Origin: Candidatus Alcyoniella australis
GTDB taxonomy: Bacteria; Lernaellota; Lernaellaia; JAVCCG01; Alcyoniellaceae
Reading direction: 5' to 3'
Assembly (NCBI GenBank): GCA_030765605.1
Contig: JAVCCG010000064.1
Location: forward strand, 1 to 48,232
Length of the DNA stretch: 48,232 nucleotides
Shown: positions 1,452-21,959 of the stretch, piece after piece
Layout of the letters: every line of letters starts with the position of its first letter
Position numbering within the stretch: the first letter of the stretch is position 1
Notes under the pieces: generated by a model
Told to the model about the DNA's origin: nothing
Seen by the model: only the letters and a program-made list of their open reading frames with translations
Database searches by the model: none
Translations under genes and position numbers: made by a program

Positions 1452-2150
1452 TTAGGGCAGAACGATCGCGCGGATCATGAAGCAGCCCGGGTAGCCGATG
1501 GCGGTCGTCGGATCGAACGGCACGCTGCCGTCGACCGAGACGAAGCCCGGCGTACTCGAGGCGGTGTCCATGCCGATCGACTGGAAGCCAACGGTCTCCT
1601 GGATGCCGACGGCAAAGGGGCCGGCCACTGCCAGCGGCGCGGTCAGCACGAACTCGTCCCAGGCGTCCCAGACGGTCGGGGTGATCGGCTGGCTGTAGAT
1701 CGGCGTTCCGGCAGTCGGACCGGCGGCCACTGTCGCGTCGTAGACCACCAGCGTGCAGGCGTACGGTGCGGGCGGCAGGGTCCCGCCCTCGAAGCCGGCG
1801 CTGTTGAACATCATCTTGACGCGCAGCAGGTTGGTGCCCGCATCGATGGCCGGATCAAAAGCGTTGACGAAGAAACCACACGGATCGGGGCCGCAGCCCA
1901 GCTGGGCGTCCTGTGTGCCGTCGTCGTAGAACAGCTCTCGCTCTGTTTCGTCATCGTCGTCATCATCGTCGTCGATGTCGTCGTCATCGTCGTCGTCGTC
2001 AACCAGATCGTCGTCATCGTCGTCGACCAGGTCGTCGTCGTCGTCGTCATCATCGTCGCCGCTGGAGCAGGCAACGATCGCCATCGAACTGAACGCAAAC
2101 ACGACGAGCAGGACGATGAACCAACGCAGTCCCATATTCCACCTTGTCAT
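1452..2150 (-). CDS. Putative lipoprotein with poly-aspartate linker and beta-sandwich domain
   Basis: The 232-residue product begins with a charged N-terminus and a hydrophobic stretch that ends in a lipobox (I-V-A-C, followed by SSG), so it should be lipidated at that cysteine. About 35 residues of almost pure Asp follow, interrupted by LV, LV and I. A compact C-terminal domain (about 150 residues) has the pattern of secreted jelly-roll modules: a tyrosine/aspartate start, FAVGIQE, a GMDTAS-like strand, and an ending of FMIRAIV. The domain call is inferred from pattern only. An ATG at 2150 is preferred over the GTG at 2153 because the GGGGAGG Shine-Dalgarno is better spaced. The gene is single, with its own terminator. 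The Asp run probably forms a charged, possibly Ca2+-binding spacer holding the domain off the membrane. Its biological function is unknown. Confidence 0.75.
   Translation of the reverse strand: MTRWNMGLRWFIVLLVVFAFSSMAIVACSSGDDDDDDDDDLVDDDDDDLVDDDDDDDDIDDDDDDDDETERELFYDDGTQDAQLGCGPDPCGFFVNAFDPAIDAGTNLLRVKMMFNSAGFEGGTLPPAPYACTLVVYDATVAAGPTAGTPIYSQPITPTVWDAWDEFVLTAPLAVAGPFAVGIQETVGFQSIGMDTASSTPGFVSVDGSVPFDPTTAIGYPGCFMIRAIVLP
1949..2058 (-). repeat. GAC/GAT trinucleotide repeat encoding the poly-Asp linker
   Basis: About 110 bp consist almost only of Asp codons, with GAC and GAT mixed. Two copies of a larger unit are visible, each ending in the LV interruption. The mixed codons suggest selection for the amino acid rather than a recent pure slippage expansion. 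The unit duplication still makes length variation likely. Confidence 0.85.
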
Positions 2151-2260
2151 CACAATCCTCCCCTCTCCAATTGCAACTCGTTGTTGAGCGCCGGAGATTC
2201 TATTTATTTTTTACATTTGGTAGCATGAAAGGCCGCTGTTCCGCAAGCGCTATGTGCGCC

Positions 2261-8231: not shown

Positions 8232-10745
8232 TCATCCAAGCCTGTCGAATTGGGTGCGACTGATGATCTCGTCCTGGATCGCCTTGCCCAGATCGACGAA
8301 CAGCGCGGAATAGCCCGAAACGCGCACAACCAGGTCGATATACTTCTCCGGGTGGGCCTGGGCGTCGAGCAAAGTGGCGTTGTCCACCACGTTGAACTGG
8401 GCCTCCATTCCGCCCTGGGAGAAGTAACCGCGAATCAGCGCGCCGAACTTCAGACGCCGCTCGGGCGTGGAGAGCATCGCGGGCAGCAGCTTGATATTCA
8501 GCGCGCAGCCGTTGCCGATCAGCGTCTGGTCGAACTTGGCCAACGAGTTCATCACGCCGGTGGGCCCGTTGCTCTCCGAGCCGTTGGTGGGCGAGAGACT
8601 GTTGGAGATCGGCGTGCCCGCAAGACGGCCGTTGGCCGTGGCCCCGAGCATCGCGCCCTCGAGCACGTGCATGCCGTAAGAGAAGAACCCCGGCCGAAAA
8701 TGACCGCCGCGCGAACCCTCGCGCGCGGAGACCTCGCGGCAGAAGTTCTCTACAATCTGTTTGGCGATCAGGTCCGCGCCGTCCTCGTCGCGGCCGTAGC
8801 GCGGCACGCGGTGTTGCAGATACTGCCGCATCACCTCGTTGTCGCGGAAGTTGTTGCGCAGCGCCCGCAGCAACTGGGGCATGGTGAACTTGCGCTGCTC
8901 GAACACCGCGTACTTGATCGCGGCCAGCGAGTCCGCGACCGTGCCCAGTCCGCGGGCCGAGATCGAGCTGAAGTTGTAGCGCGCACCACCCTGGGTCAGA
9001 TCGCGGGCGTTTTCCAGGCAGCCCTCGATGCTCAGCGAGACAAAGGGGCTGTGCAGGGTCTGTGCATAGGCCTGGTCCTTGAGGTTCGTGGCCCGGGCCA
9101 CCACGTCGATCATGAACCGCACCTGGCTTTGGAAAGCCTCGAACAGCTGCTCGTAACTCTCGAACCGCGCCGGGTCGCCGGTATCGGGCCCTAGTCGGCG
9201 GCCGAGGATAAACAGCCGACCGCGGTTGAGCGTCATCTCCAGCGCGCCGACCAGCGAGATATCGTTGCCCGAGGTGCAGCCAAAGGTATCGCCCTCGCCC
9301 GTGGGCTCGACGCAGCCGATCACCGCGTAGTCGCGCGCCGCGGCCGCGCTGTAGCCGTCGCGGGTCAGCGCCTCGACCACCACCTCGTCGTTGAACACCG
9401 CCGGGCCGGAGGTCACGCTGAACAGCTCCGCGGTCTTGTCCAACCAGCTCTGCGGCGATTTGGAATCAATGCGGATCGAGAAGCTGTTGCCCAGGGCCCG
9501 CACGTCGGCCACCGCGTCGAGGAACACCTCGGAGAGCTCGTTGGTCGCGTCATTGCCATCGGGCCCCAGCCCGCCGACCGTGACCGCGTTGGAATCGGCC
9601 CCCAGTTCGCTGCCCGTATTCTTGCCGCCAAAGGGGATCGTCAGCAGGTTCGACGAGAGTTTGATCAACAACTCCTCGACGATGTCCAGGGCCCCACGGC
9701 GCGTCAGCGCGCCGCGTTGGATATCGCGTTGATAGTACGGATAGAGGTACTGATCCGAACGCCCGACAGCGAAAATCCCGACCATGCCGTGGGCCACGAT
9801 CGCGCCGACCTGGGTCAGCCACAACGACTGCACGGCCTCGGCAAAATCGCGCGGCGGATCATAGGGCACGCGCTCACAGCGCTGCGCGATCGCAAGCAAT
9901 TCGGCCTTACGCTGCGGATCGCCCTGCCCCTTTGCCTGCTCGCGGGCCAGGACTGCGAAGCGTCCGGCAAAGTTCTTGATCGCATCGCAGCAAATCAGCG
10001 CGGCCTCGCAAAAGGCCACACCGTCCGTATCGTTGTCCGCCCTGCACTGTTCCAGCCGCTGCTGTGCACGTCGAGCCACTTCGCGGAACCCGATCGGCAG
10101 CAGATTGCGATGGCCCACAACCATGTGCCCCTGCACGTCGAACACGTTCATCACCATGCCCGGATTGTTGTAGCTCAGCTCCTCCACTGCCTTGGGCGCC
10201 TGGCTAAGCTTGAACTGCGGCGAGCGCACCATCTGGAACAGCGTGTGCATATCCAGACTGCGGTAGCGCCGGTAGATGCTCAGCGGGTCCAGGCGCACTC
10301 CGAAGTGCAAACCGTTTTCCTTCCACAGCCGACGCTTGAGCGCGCGCAGGCTGCGCTTGCGCCAGTACGGCAGGATCTGGTCGAACAGCTCGCTGCGGTC
10401 CTGCGGATCGATGCGGTAGGGCTGCCGTTCGCGCGCCAGCAACGAGTCCAGGTCCATCTCGAGCACCGCGTTGATGTCGCCGCGCTCCACCGGGATCGGC
10501 GTGCCCACGATCTTGCTGGTGCGGTTGCCCACGATCCCCTCGCAATCGAGGATCTCGATGCTCATCTTCTCCAGGCAATTTTGCAGGGCCAGCGCCGCGC
10601 GCAACGAAGGATGGCGGCCCACGGTGGCCCGATACGACTCGGTGACATAACGCGCGCGCTCGATGCAGATCTCGTAAGGCGCGTGCAGCACCAGATTTTT
10701 ATAGCACGCGTTTCGTTCTGAGATGCCAGGAGGAAAATCAATCAT
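8232..10745 (-). CDS. Glycyl radical enzyme (pyruvate formate-lyase/dehydratase superfamily), substrate unknown
   Basis: This oxygen-sensitive enzyme (837 residues) carries both catalytic signatures. The thiyl-radical cysteine is C478 in GCVEP, with E480 the general base typical of the dehydratase/choline-lyase branch. The glycyl radical site is G811 in RVSGYSA. The family motif GRSDQYLYPYY is at 328-338. After GCVEP the sequence (about 481-495) departs from the glycerol/propanediol dehydratase and choline lyase patterns I know, so I do not assign a substrate. These enzymes need a radical-SAM activase, normally next door, and none is present in this window. There is also no microcompartment gene. 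The start at 10745 has a GGAG about eight bases upstream. The gene is divergent from the acyl-CoA dehydrogenase across a 232-bp gap. Confidence 0.92.
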   Translation of the reverse strand: MIDFPPGISERNACYKNLVLHAPYEICIERARYVTESYRATVGRHPSLRAALALQNCLEKMSIEILDCEGIVGNRTSKIVGTPIPVERGDINAVLEMDLDSLLARERQPYRIDPQDRSELFDQILPYWRKRSLRALKRRLWKENGLHFGVRLDPLSIYRRYRSLDMHTLFQMVRSPQFKLSQAPKAVEELSYNNPGMVMNVFDVQGHMVVGHRNLLPIGFREVARRAQQRLEQCRADNDTDGVAFCEAALICCDAIKNFAGRFAVLAREQAKGQGDPQRKAELLAIAQRCERVPYDPPRDFAEAVQSLWLTQVGAIVAHGMVGIFAVGRSDQYLYPYYQRDIQRGALTRRGALDIVEELLIKLSSNLLTIPFGGKNTGSELGADSNAVTVGGLGPDGNDATNELSEVFLDAVADVRALGNSFSIRIDSKSPQSWLDKTAELFSVTSGPAVFNDEVVVEALTRDGYSAAAARDYAVIGCVEPTGEGDTFGCTSGNDISLVGALEMTLNRGRLFILGRRLGPDTGDPARFESYEQLFEAFQSQVRFMIDVVARATNLKDQAYAQTLHSPFVSLSIEGCLENARDLTQGGARYNFSSISARGLGTVADSLAAIKYAVFEQRKFTMPQLLRALRNNFRDNEVMRQYLQHRVPRYGRDEDGADLIAKQIVENFCREVSAREGSRGGHFRPGFFSYGMHVLEGAMLGATANGRLAGTPISNSLSPTNGSESNGPTGVMNSLAKFDQTLIGNGCALNIKLLPAMLSTPERRLKFGALIRGYFSQGGMEAQFNVVDNATLLDAQAHPEKYIDLVVRVSGYSALFVDLGKAIQDEIISRTQFDRLG

Positions 10746-17366: not shown

Positions 17367-19127
17367 ATGAAACGTGTAAGTTTCCTTACATCGACGATAG
17401 TGCTCTGCGCTCTGGCGATCTGCTCGCCGGCCGCGGCAGCCACAGTGACGGCGCAACTGGACATGGACCTGTCCAAGGGCGATCTAAGCCTGAGCCAGAT
17501 CGTGTTCGACACCCCGACCAGCCTGGCCCCGAGCACGGCCTACGATTTCGAGCTGACGGTCAATTTCTGGAGCGACAATCAGTACGAGTGGCTCTACTCC
17601 ACGAGCCTGACGCTGCCCGCGGGCTACACTGTGAACAGCGCGCAGGATCCGTCCTACGTCAACGAGCAGGGCTGGTGGAACAACACGATCACCGGGACCA
17701 AAATCGACTGGGTCTTCGACCACTATGAGCATCCCGGTGCGGGCGACGTGCACCGCGGCTACTCGGTCACCTACTCCTTTAACGCCACCACCGACGGATC
17801 GGCCACCAACGACTTCGACTGCGTGCTCACCGGCGATGAAGAGGGCGTGCTCTCGCGCGCGGTCTACATCGGTGCGCCGGTGGTCGACTCCATCGCCCCG
17901 GCGACCTACAGCGTGGTCGAGCTCGACCAGCAGATCGTGGTGACCTTCTCCACGGCGATGGACACCGGGACCGTGGCCTACACCTGCACACCCGATCCTG
18001 GCAACTGGACCGAGGTCTGGAGCGAATCGGACACCGTGCTGACCCTGACCCACGACGACTTCGAGCTGGCGCGCAACTACCTGTTCCGCGTCACTGCGGG
18101 CGATTCCACGACCGGGCTGCCGATCTCGCCGATGCAGGTGACCTATTACACCCACGGCGACGCGGTGAACTCGCCGTTCACCAAGACCCCGCCGACCTTC
18201 GACGGGCTGCTGCTCGCCGACGAGTGGGCCGACGCCGAGGTGATCGACATCTCGGCCACGGGTTCGGGCAACATCTTCCTCTACATCATGAACGACCTGG
18301 AATACATCTACATCGGCCTGGACATCCCCGGCGACACCCAGCTGGACTACAACCAGTTCACCGGCGCCACGGACCAGTACGGCATCTACTTTGACGAGAA
18401 CAACGACGACGCGTTCCCGGCCACCGAAGCCGACCCGGTCAAAGAGGGGCTAGCGTGGCTGATCTACCTGCCGGACGACCCGCCCTACGTGCAGAGCTTC
18501 CGGCAGTACTTCGGCGACTACGCCGCCGGAACCCTGGACTACGTCCCCTCGTTCGAGAGCAGCCTGGGGCTGCAGGCGATGCTGGGCACGACCATGGGCC
18601 ACGTGCAGATCGAGGCCGCGTACAACGCCGAGGAGGGGTTCATCAACCCGGAGCTCCCCGGCACCTTCGGCATGCGGATGTTCTACTTCGAGGCCGGCTC
18701 CGAGACCTACATGGGAACCTGGCCGCGCTATTCCAACGGCTATCTGCCGGCGACCTACATGGACATCAACCTGGCCGAGGCCGAGGCGCCCGAGGTGCTG
18801 AGCATCGAGCCCGCCTTTGGCTATCCCAACCTGACGACCGAGGTCACGGTCACCGCCGAGGGCATCAGCAACGACGCCACGCTGCACATCGGCGAGACCG
18901 AGTGCATCAACGTGCAGGTGCTCTCCAGCTCGTTGCTGACCGCCCTGGTCCCCTCGGGCGTACCGATCGGCCTGCACGACGTAATCATCACCAACCGCGA
19001 TCAGCAGCAGGGAGTGCTCGCCGACGGCTTTGAGAGCAAAGACCCCAATGCCGACGACGATGACGACGCCGGTGACGACGACGCTGCCGGCGACGATGAC
19101 GACGACGACGACCAGTGCTGTAAATAG
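17367..19127 (+). CDS. Secreted multidomain protein with Ig-like, CBM9-like and IPT/TIG modules and a poly-Asp-CCK tail
   Basis: A clear Sec signal peptide ends at AAA (about residue 25). Residues 26-170 form a beta-rich domain I do not recognise. About 172-265 resembles a bacterial Ig-like (Big_5) module (a TFSTAMD-type strand and a RNYLFRV strand). About 268-475 has the pattern of a CBM9/DOMON-type carbohydrate-binding domain (FDGLLLADEW start, YIYIGLDI and YGIYFDENND strands). About 478-555 looks like an IPT/TIG domain. The C-terminus (562-586) is nearly all Asp and ends in QCCK. The tail parallels the poly-Asp linker of the lipoprotein at the left end of the window, but here it is C-terminal with paired cysteines. 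It could be a surface-retention or modification signal. The gene stands alone, between its own promoter and terminator. Confidence 0.8.
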   Translation: MKRVSFLTSTIVLCALAICSPAAAATVTAQLDMDLSKGDLSLSQIVFDTPTSLAPSTAYDFELTVNFWSDNQYEWLYSTSLTLPAGYTVNSAQDPSYVNEQGWWNNTITGTKIDWVFDHYEHPGAGDVHRGYSVTYSFNATTDGSATNDFDCVLTGDEEGVLSRAVYIGAPVVDSIAPATYSVVELDQQIVVTFSTAMDTGTVAYTCTPDPGNWTEVWSESDTVLTLTHDDFELARNYLFRVTAGDSTTGLPISPMQVTYYTHGDAVNSPFTKTPPTFDGLLLADEWADAEVIDISATGSGNIFLYIMNDLEYIYIGLDIPGDTQLDYNQFTGATDQYGIYFDENNDDAFPATEADPVKEGLAWLIYLPDDPPYVQSFRQYFGDYAAGTLDYVPSFESSLGLQAMLGTTMGHVQIEAAYNAEEGFINPELPGTFGMRMFYFEAGSETYMGTWPRYSNGYLPATYMDINLAEAEAPEVLSIEPAFGYPNLTTEVTVTAEGISNDATLHIGETECINVQVLSSSLLTALVPSGVPIGLHDVIITNRDQQQGVLADGFESKDPNADDDDDAGDDDAAGDDDDDDDQCCK

Positions 19128-19155
19128 CGCACAACGCCACTTTGAATAATCGACA

Positions 19156-19187
19156 AGCCCCCGGCATATAATTGCCGGGGGCTTTTT
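19156..19187 (+). terminator. Rho-independent terminator after the secreted poly-Asp protein
   Basis: AGCCCCCGGCA and TGCCGGGGGCT form a perfect 11-bp stem with loop TATAAT, followed by five T residues. It begins 28 nt after the stop. Confidence 0.95.
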
Positions 19188-19280: not shown

Positions 19281-20015
19281 ATGCAGATAGCCTGTACCCA
19301 ATGCGGCGGCCAGGTGCCGATCGAGCCGGACAGCGATTTTCTAAGCTGTCCGTATTGCAATACCAGCCTGTTCGTCGACCTGCGCGGAAGCGTGCACCAC
19401 CTGGCGATCGAGCCGCTGGTGCCGCCGGACCAAGCGCTCCAGACCCTGATGGATTTCCTGCGCGACCACGAATTACCGCGACCCAAGAGCATCGATTCCA
19501 AATTGATCTACCTGCCGTTCTGGCAGATCCAGTGGCCGCACCATCTAGCTTCGATGGTGGCCGGGCACTTGCCGCAGACCGGCCTGCTCGAGCCCGCGCT
19601 GCCTCCGGGCACTCAGTTGGGCCTCGATCGCTGCCGGATCGACCCCGGCGATCTCACGCTCCCCGGCGTCCAGTTGGACGCGGCGCTGGAGGCGTTCAGC
19701 GAATCGCAGCCGGACTATCAGAACTTCAAGTCCGCGCGCCTAGTGCATGCGCCGTTTCATCTGCTGGCCTTCAGCCTGTCGGGCAACGAGCACCACGCGC
19801 TGGTCGACGCGGTGACCGGCGCGATCTACATCGAGGGACTGCCCAGCGCCGCCTCCACCGGCCGAACCGTGCGCTCAATGCTGATGGTCTCCTCGATCAT
19901 CGTGCTGGCCACGCTGGTGGTGGCCCTGGCGCCGCGCACGATCTTCGGCATCGCGGCCCTGGTTGTGCTCGGTTATCCGCTGACCATGTTGTTCCGTTAT
20001 GGATTGAGACGATGA
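19281..20015 (+). CDS. Zinc-ribbon membrane protein, first of a three-gene cassette
   Basis: The 244-residue product starts with a zinc ribbon (C5-x2-C8, then C23-x2-C26 in SCPYC). A cytoplasmic-looking region follows with LPFWQI near residue 75, then a VDAVTGAIYIEG segment and two C-terminal membrane helices (about 196-240). The LPFW and DAVTG motifs recur in the next genes. The ribbon resembles rubredoxin/TFIIB-type knuckles that bind a structural Zn or Fe. I do not recognise a named family. The ATG at 19281 has only a weak Shine-Dalgarno, but the ribbon begins four residues later, so the start is about right. The stop overlaps the next start as ATGA. Confidence 0.8.
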   Translation: MQIACTQCGGQVPIEPDSDFLSCPYCNTSLFVDLRGSVHHLAIEPLVPPDQALQTLMDFLRDHELPRPKSIDSKLIYLPFWQIQWPHHLASMVAGHLPQTGLLEPALPPGTQLGLDRCRIDPGDLTLPGVQLDAALEAFSESQPDYQNFKSARLVHAPFHLLAFSLSGNEHHALVDAVTGAIYIEGLPSAASTGRTVRSMLMVSSIIVLATLVVALAPRTIFGIAALVVLGYPLTMLFRYGLRR

Positions 20016-21247
20016 GCGAACGCCCCGTCGAGACCCCGGACCGGCCGCATAACGGCGAAGAGGGCGTGTACCACGTCTCGTGCCCCGGTTGCGGCGGCAC
20101 TCTGGCCAGACCGCAGGGCGCACAGATAATCCAGTGCGACTATTGCAAGGCGCGCTGCCTGGTCCGCTGCGAGAGCATCGTCCCGCGAGTGGCGGTCATG
20201 CCGCGGTTAACCCATGCAGACATCCGCGCGGTGGTCACGCCGCTGCTGACCAACTACAACACCCCCGAGGACATGATCGACCGCGCGGTGCCCAAGCAGT
20301 CCCGGCTGTTCTTCGTGCCCTACTTCGAGATCGCGGGCAAGAAAGGCTCGGTGCGCCGCTCGATGCGCGATGCGCGCTGGACCGACAAGGACTCGGAAAT
20401 CACCCTGCGCACCATCGACCTGGTCAGCGACAATTTCTCAGACCGCCAACGCCGCATACGGCGCGGCAGCGTACACGATATGGTGGTCTCGCTCTCCGAC
20501 TTCTACGACTTCTTGCCCGCCAGCTCGATGCCCGGGTTCGGCGTCGAACATGCACGGGTGGGCGACGTGCGCGGCAAGGCCTCGGACATCGATTGCCAGG
20601 TGGTGCCCTTCGATCCTGTCGAACTTGCGAGCAAGGGAATCGTCGTGGGCGTTACTCGCTCGATCAGCAGTTTTCAGCAGGCCTTTGACGCACGCATCAA
20701 GGCCAGCTCGGGCAGCGGCGAAGTCCAGGTGGTCGAAAGCCGCTCCGGGGTCGTCTATTACCCGCTATATCGCGTGATCCTCAGCTACGCGGGCCGCGAC
20801 TATCCGCTGACCATCGACGCGGTCACCGGCGATGTAATATCGGCCCGGCTGCCCGAGTCGGGCAAGGTGCGCGCGCCGATGGCCGTTGGTTTCAGCCTGT
20901 GGGTCGGGATGTCGTTCGGGCTTCTGTTGCGCCTGGGGCTCAAGGCTTTTGAGAACCCGCGGCAATTCTTCGAGTACCTGTTCTACGCCGACAGCGGCAC
21001 GGGCAACGTCTTAATTTTCGGCATCCTCGGCTCGATCCTGATCCTGGCGCTGACGCTGCTCTTCCTCTCGATCGCCTGGGACCACGTGCGCTACGAGGGC
21101 GAATACGTAGTGCGCGGATCCAGCGCATCCTTCGAGCGCATCGGTCGACCCGAGAAGACCCTGCTGGACAAGCTGAGCATGGGACTCTCAAAGGCCCTCG
21201 ACCCTTGGTTCTATCGCGAGCCCTACACCCGGATCGATAAAAAATGA
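20012..21247 (+). CDS. Zinc-ribbon membrane protein, second of a three-gene cassette
   Basis: The 411-residue product begins with about 23 polar residues. A zinc ribbon follows (CPGC and CDYC, about 24-46), then a region holding the recurring motif FFVPYFEIAG near residue 110. A long soluble domain follows, then an LTIDAVTGDVISARLP segment (compare DAVTG in the previous gene). Two membrane segments (about 290-310 and 330-355) and a 55-residue basic tail end the protein. The shared motif order suggests a common ancestor with the first gene, with an inserted domain. It overlaps both neighbours by four bases (ATGA), so the three are translationally coupled. Function is unknown; a membrane complex with metal-binding heads is the natural reading. 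Confidence 0.8.
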   Translation: MSERPVETPDRPHNGEEGVYHVSCPGCGGTLARPQGAQIIQCDYCKARCLVRCESIVPRVAVMPRLTHADIRAVVTPLLTNYNTPEDMIDRAVPKQSRLFFVPYFEIAGKKGSVRRSMRDARWTDKDSEITLRTIDLVSDNFSDRQRRIRRGSVHDMVVSLSDFYDFLPASSMPGFGVEHARVGDVRGKASDIDCQVVPFDPVELASKGIVVGVTRSISSFQQAFDARIKASSGSGEVQVVESRSGVVYYPLYRVILSYAGRDYPLTIDAVTGDVISARLPESGKVRAPMAVGFSLWVGMSFGLLLRLGLKAFENPRQFFEYLFYADSGTGNVLIFGILGSILILALTLLFLSIAWDHVRYEGEYVVRGSSASFERIGRPEKTLLDKLSMGLSKALDPWFYREPYTRIDKK

Positions 21248-21888
21248 CGGACGACGCCGTAGTCAAAGTCGTTACGTTGAGCTGCCCCGACTGCGGCGCG
21301 GCGCTGGACGGACTGGGCACGGACGTGCTGTTCGGCTGCTCGACCTGCGGCCGGGCACTCGATCCGTTGCGCCCCGACCAACCAGCAACGCCCATCGTCT
21401 ACGCCCGAGCACAGGAGCCGGTTCCGCGATTGCCGATCGTCCGCCTGCCGTTCTGGGTGATCGACGTTGAAGCGCGGGCGGTCGATTCCAACGGCAACCC
21501 CGTGGTGCTCGACGGCTGGCTGGAGCAAATCTGGGTAAGCGCCTTCTGGACCCGCGCCACGATGCGCTACGGCGACCCGGCCCAACTTCTCACCCAGCGC
21601 CAGGCCTTTCTAGAACCCGGCGGGGAGCGCGGCAGGTTGGCCGGGATCGCTCGGCGGCCCGAACATGCATCGGCCATTGCCCGCTACTTCCAGCTCGCCC
21701 AGCTGGACAAGCATCAGGATCTGGGTGAAAACGTCGTCGATCCGCTGCTATCCGCGGCGCAGCTTGTCGCGGTCCCCTTTGCCTTGGAGGGTGGATCGAT
21801 GACCGACCTATTGCTCGGAAACACGGTCTCAACTCGCATCGTACAAGACCTGAGTCAGCTGCAAAGTCCGGTCGACTCGCCCGCTTGA
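21244..21888 (+). CDS. Zinc-ribbon protein, third of a three-gene cassette
   Basis: The 214-residue product has an N-terminal zinc ribbon (CPDC and CSTC, about 14-35). The recurring motif comes next as RLPFWVIDVEA (about 66-76), then a soluble domain of about 130 residues. Unlike its two partners it has no clear membrane helix and lacks the DAVTG segment. It may be the soluble member of the set. It overlaps the second gene by ATGA. The next gene begins 71 nt later, so the cassette may be separable from the glycosyltransferase-lipB part of the run. No family recognised. Confidence 0.8.
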   Translation: MTDDAVVKVVTLSCPDCGAALDGLGTDVLFGCSTCGRALDPLRPDQPATPIVYARAQEPVPRLPIVRLPFWVIDVEARAVDSNGNPVVLDGWLEQIWVSAFWTRATMRYGDPAQLLTQRQAFLEPGGERGRLAGIARRPEHASAIARYFQLAQLDKHQDLGENVVDPLLSAAQLVAVPFALEGGSMTDLLLGNTVSTRIVQDLSQLQSPVDSPA

Positions 21889-21959
21889 CGCTCCCTTGGC
21901 GCTGTGACAACATTCGCAGGCGTTTTTCTCCAGTTTTTCTATCGTCCGGGGTACTTTCC

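Follow-up and report, generated by a model that had tools for sequence, protein, structure and literature searches.

In Bacillus subtilis, YdjG and YdjH interact with each other, YdjH contacts both PspA and YdjI, and deletion of ydjG or ydjH abolishes the membrane foci of YdjI and PspA (PMC8581546). YdjG combines a pair of zinc ribbons with a YpeB-related domain and a membrane segment, whilst the TPM proteins include YdjH (Ravi et al. 2024, PMC11237479); the same authors proposed chaperone-like, complex-assembly roles for the band-7 and TPM partners of PspA (PMC11237479), and Popp et al. suggested DNA binding for YdjG from the likeness of its ribbons (PMC9239133). In related arrangements, the membrane proteins PspB and PspC retain an oligomer of the cytoplasm on the membrane (PMC8581546), and NfeD is a conserved operon partner of membrane SPFH proteins of the stomatin and flotillin types (PMC2636767). 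A 2009 survey of 497 genomes described small SPFH subfamilies, soluble ones included, without an identified conserved partner (PMC2636767), and YdjI, whose foci need YdjG and YdjH and which works with PspA, is the only worked case that we found in the literature.

Here we analyze three zinc-ribbon genes of Candidatus Alcyoniella australis, termed A, B and C, that resemble these systems in part. Like YdjG-type proteins, A and B carry a zinc ribbon, a homologous PFW...LP.W...(D/N)G.TG domain and a C-terminal membrane segment, and in many relatives of the triplet the genes adjoin one for a YdjI-type SPFH protein, whereas in the window genome the two lie on separate contigs. Unlike YdjG, which is a single protein with two N-terminal ribbons (PMC11237479), the triplet consists of three paralogues with one ribbon each, of which C is soluble and lacks a membrane segment; A and B also fall outside the YdjG-type clade. 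NfeD differs in having no zinc ribbon and in partnering membrane SPFH proteins, whereas the triplet is associated with a soluble SPFH family, and NfeD models are absent from the Pfam matches of A, B and C. These proteins likewise have no Pfam match to PspB or PspC, and the window genome contains no PspA (PF04012), no TPM-domain protein (YdjH, PF04536) and no full YdjG-type protein.

Three coupled zinc-ribbon genes in the window

The window, the whole 48,232-nt stretch of DNA analyzed here, encodes the triplet on its forward strand, to which all coordinates below refer unless marked otherwise. A (19281-20015, 244 aa) and B (20012-21247, 411 aa) each combine a zinc ribbon, a PFW domain and two C-terminal membrane helices, followed in B by a C-terminal tail, and C (21244-21888, 214 aa) joins ribbon and PFW domain in a soluble protein. 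All three genes start with ATG, and a four-letter overlap at A/B and again at B/C agrees with the ATGA coupling described in an earlier, sequence-only reading of this DNA. That reading had a CxxC...CxxC knuckle opening each protein; the ribbons are indeed N-terminal in A (C5, C8, C23, C26; 19293-19358), B (C24, C27, C42, C45; 20081-20146) and C (C14, C17, C32, C35; 21283-21348), with the correction that about 20 residues precede the ribbon of B. The four cysteines are invariant in alignments of A homologues and of C homologues, and those of B are invariant in one alignment and nearly so in another.

Each protein also carries the [LV]P[FY][FW]xI motif seen at the outset, as LPFWQI in A (residues 78-83, 19512-19529), VPYFEI in B (residues 102-107, 20315-20332, inside a long predicted strand spanning residues 93-123) and LPFWVI in C (residues 68-73, 21445-21462). 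Its spacing from the knuckle, originally judged similar throughout, is so in A and B, where 74-79 residues separate the first ribbon cysteine from the motif proline, and shrinks to 55 in C. Of the 115 stop-to-stop frames in the window that reach 150 aa, A, B and C are the only ones to combine CxxC with this motif. A DAVTG segment is common to A (residues 176-180, 19806-19820) and B (residues 269-273, 20816-20830), aligns between them and is absent from C. Hydropathy agrees with two membrane proteins and one soluble one: Kyte-Doolittle 19-residue windows place two membrane segments in A (residues ~196-239, 19866-19997), hydropathy and an AlphaFold2 model place two helices in B (residues ~287-314, 20870-20953, and ~333-361, 21008-21094), and C has no membrane segment by hydropathy.

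A terminator-like hairpin of 12 pairs, a consensus match only, lies between the upstream gene and the triplet (19155-19184), and a weaker one just 3′ of C (21902-21919) is not above chance expectation. The downstream neighbors are a glycosyltransferase gene and lipB, neither of which recurs beside the triplet elsewhere. The window also encodes two probable secreted proteins with long aspartate runs (1452-2153, reverse strand; 17367-19127, forward strand) and a glycyl-radical-enzyme-like protein of 837 aa that carries an RVSGYSA segment close to the C-terminus (8232-10745, reverse strand).

Homology within the triplet and to YdjG-type proteins

Profile comparison shows that the motif likeness of A, B and C goes beyond chance and is true homology. 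A against B reached 99.7% with the whole soluble part aligned, and B against C reached 98.1% over 205 columns (29-row profiles), a region that includes, besides the ribbon, PFW and PA, a second proline-aromatic motif. As controls, B gave 0.2% against the unrelated H family described below, and 78.6% over 12 columns only against the zinc-ribbon tail of SPFH. Because C against A, with small profiles, aligned the ribbon alone, the homology of C rests on its comparison with B. These comparisons bear out the duplication and divergence proposed earlier, placing the three proteins as paralogues of one another rather than in unrelated known families.

A and B are also homologous to YdjG-type proteins in these comparisons: using YdjG-type proteins of other genomes, rather than B. 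subtilis YdjG itself, hhalign gave 99.5% over 246 columns for B, 99.1% for A and a weaker 94.6% for C. The proteins compared include double-ribbon proteins adjoining SPFH in five genomes (G084, G154, G115, G158 and G175), which the B profile also matches. Searches of viral contigs and of plasmids with B returned no relatives. YdjG-type relatives do occur on plasmids, beside SPFH, where their annotation is hypothetical, 'zinc ribbon domain-containing protein' or 'TFIIB-type zinc ribbon-containing protein'; one Enterococcus plasmid has the order SPFH / YdjG-type / TPM, which matches ydjI, ydjG and ydjH.

In a 61-row tree, A proteins from several lineages form one clade (98/94), B-type halves of fused proteins form another (99/98), and YdjG-type proteins form their own (100/99) with A and B outside it; B as such was not recovered as a clade. 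This pattern suggests that the duplication of A and B is likely older than their observed spread, with the inner forks of the tree uncertain given the number of long terminal branches. At L029 (8646-9578), an A homologue in the expected place no longer has the zinc-ribbon cysteines, which suggests that A can do without the ribbon in that lineage.

No Pfam or NCBIfam model matched A, B or C above its curated cut-off, the weak matches being unrelated zinc ribbons, and PADLOC defence models gave no match of any score. PDB sequence profiles returned short zinc ribbons only, with generic helices for H and nothing for SPFH. AlphaFold2 models built from 29-row alignments (B, mean pLDDT 79.2, pTM 0.68; C, mean pLDDT 88.2, pTM 0.86) place both proline-aromatic motifs of each protein in long strands. 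Foldseek comparison of these models with the PDB gave best E values of 0.16 for B and 0.57 for C at low probability; with none below 0.1, we claim no known fold, a result compatible with a fold that may be new. Pore-forming proteins among the matches of B were rejected, as the likeness lies in the long strands only. In the freely readable literature, we found nothing on the triplet beyond the YdjG and PspA papers. The initial view that no named system has this layout therefore stands insofar as no named family covers A, B and C; as distant relatives of YdjG-type proteins, A and B make the kind of system not wholly unknown.

Genomic distribution and likely partner genes

Within the phylum, six other genomes yielded no B in a single-sequence search and no C by profile. 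Full-length but distant relatives of B occur across a 290-genome spread, in which the A-B-C order proved to be conserved in other phyla (L027 in G190, L028 in G224, L029 in G082, L030 in G121, L034 in G245, L130 in G135, L131 in G036, L132 in G183 and L144 in G109). Partial arrangements also occur, with A and B adjacent and C elsewhere in G120 and G257, and B and C adjacent and A elsewhere in G246. In G224 (L028, after C) and G082 (L029, 6205-6795), the triplet is followed by a gene for a zinc-ribbon and FHA protein, hinting at phospho-signalling in that lineage.

At L028 and L030, the triplet follows genes for a soluble SPFH protein (S) with C-terminal zinc ribbons and for a ~170-aa helical protein, H. 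The window genome encodes an H-S pair as well, on contig C61 rather than on the triplet's contig, so linkage is not demonstrated in that genome. Its SPFH protein matches Band_7_1 far above the cut-off (E 2.6e-59), in a search whose control, B. subtilis, matched, and like YdjI it is soluble with a C-terminal zinc ribbon. H, encoded there at L037 4140-4685 with the conserved pattern IPG..GY...E.RR..DK..R, is found almost always upstream of the soluble SPFH gene, in most of loci L167-L246. It has no Pfam family; its nearest model, NCBIfam LIMLP_15305, scored far below cut-off, and the literature naming that model gives it no function. The candidate identification of H as a remote PspA was set aside, being without Pfam support.

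Scanning named genomes with an SPFH alignment, we took the best 80 loci and identified neighbors with local HMMs. A homologue of A, B or C lay within 4 kb of SPFH at 39 of these 80 loci (at L233, a YdjG-type gene instead); 29 had room and no such neighbor, and at 12 the contig ended too soon. The order H-S-A-B-C occurs in Methylomirabilota (L188 and L189), Stahlbacteria (L232) and L214; S-A-B-C in a Geobacter-like genome (L174), Methylomirabilota (L175) and a Desulfovibrio MAG (L190); and [A-]B-C-H-S in actinobacterial MAGs (L199, L201, L203, L206 and L238). At approximately 20 of the best 80 loci, in Desulfobacterales, Zixibacteria, Calditrichota and others, the gene directly 3′ of S encodes a B-type half and a C-type half fused in one protein, most of these proteins having no membrane helix. 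The recurrent fusion suggests physical association of the two halves. At L181 (9384-13151) and L212 (1158-3934), a gene of the fused B-C type overlaps an NfeD1b gene, followed at L181 by a membrane SPFH gene of the stomatin type, which places two SPFH systems in one operon.

Co-occurrence parallels this linkage: Band_7_1 is present in 17 of the 19 genomes with C compared with 46 of 290 overall (p = 2e-13, a value that ignores relatedness, the 19 genomes representing 15 families). PspA, by comparison, is absent from 15 of the 19 genomes with C. Of the genomes that have SPFH, 4 of the 17 with C encode PspA, versus 19 of the 29 without C (p = 0.013), a contrast that is suggestive only because six of the 19 PspA genomes without C belong to one class. 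The six class-mates of the window genome all have a PspA-family match and all have SPFH, with H directly upstream in five; three carry a YdjG-type protein and none carries C. The putative "small membrane complex" envisaged from the window is therefore no stand-alone unit, since the genes behind it are linked, by position or co-occurrence, to those of H and of a soluble SPFH protein of YdjI type.

A candidate SPFH scaffold complex and its alternatives

The triplet gene set is probably a distant cousin of the Bacillus membrane-stress system (pspA-ydjGHI). Our preferred reading, to which we assign a probability of roughly 55%, is a PspA-independent SPFH membrane-scaffold complex in which A, B and C serve as three paralogous, zinc-binding adaptors working with S and H. 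A two-helix hairpin at the C-terminus would anchor A and B in the cytoplasmic membrane, a location that follows from their hydrophobic helices, with their zinc-ribbon/PFW domains facing the cytoplasm, an orientation inferred from the cysteines and basic flanks; C would be the soluble paralogue. By analogy with YdjG and YdjH, the resulting zinc-ribbon/PFW platform may dock the soluble SPFH oligomer on the membrane, holding it, along with anything it recruits, at sites of membrane stress as YdjG and YdjH do for YdjI in Bacillus. Docking here would dispense with PspA, the TPM protein YdjH and the second zinc ribbon of YdjG, and H, whose gene lies immediately 5′ of the SPFH gene at most loci, would be the usual companion of SPFH. 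Because most fused B-C proteins lack a membrane helix, anchoring cannot be the shared function, which suggests that the common core is SPFH adaptation rather than anchoring itself. This lack of helices counts against the scaffold, as do the separate contigs of the triplet and H-SPFH in the window genome, the 29 of 68 SPFH loci with room that have none of A, B and C as a neighbor, and the six class-mates, of which none yielded C and three have a YdjG-type protein instead.

The membrane-free fusions would fit a soluble adaptor of another kind, in which the triplet proteins bind clients and serve SPFH membrane microdomains as assembly or quality-control factors, not as stress anchors. Their zinc-ribbon/PFW domains would then hold membrane-protein clients or parts of complexes, with the SPFH oligomer as the enclosure, in keeping with the chaperone-like roles that Ravi et al. 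proposed for band-7 and TPM partners of PspA (PMC11237479) and with the succession of fused B-C gene and NfeD1b at L181 and L212, with a membrane SPFH gene next at L181. We nevertheless regard such a role as unlikely: the NfeD linkage is confined to two loci, and among studied proteins the nearest relatives, YdjG/YdjH with YdjI and PspA, function in recruitment to the membrane during stress. The position of the window triplet, apart from SPFH and upstream of a glycosyltransferase gene and lipB, would suit an association with SPFH that is a by-product of shared ancestry or neighborhood in a few lineages, the triplet itself serving some unconnected housekeeping task, for instance metal storage or membrane-enzyme assembly. 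Yet linkage occurs in both orders, 5′ and 3′ of H-S, across many phyla and with fused halves, co-occurrence extends over 15 families, and the window's downstream genes do not accompany the triplet elsewhere, making this account rather improbable. Least probable is a role for A, B and C as nucleic-acid binders or membrane-tethered regulators of transcription that act through a TFIIB-like ribbon. In sequence the ribbons do resemble those of TFIIB, of RNA-polymerase subunit P/Rpo12 and of ribosomal proteins, the same basis on which Popp et al. suggested DNA binding for YdjG (PMC9239133), but such likeness is generic to four-cysteine ribbons, conservation spans the PFW domain, and the A homologue at L029 has no ribbon at all.

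With the scaffold complex as the preferred reading, the A-B-C gene set is widespread in bacteria, so far without a name, and makes up one half of a larger module that includes SPFH, branching distantly from a system already known in part. This analysis identifies genes that recur as partners of soluble SPFH proteins, in bacteria mostly without PspA, and flags a conserved protein domain without a match among solved structures; linked sets are available in named lineages such as the Geobacter-like L174 and Methylomirabilota L188 and L189. Tentatively, and at somewhat less than even odds, A-B-C, H and soluble SPFH may together constitute an ancient PspA-independent membrane-guarding machine of many phyla, with an adaptor fold new to the PDB, the paralogues providing a docking platform that had appeared to be missing for most soluble SPFH proteins. 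Confirmation of the partner set would show that the SPFH membrane-guard module extends beyond the phage-shock system, where it was discovered.
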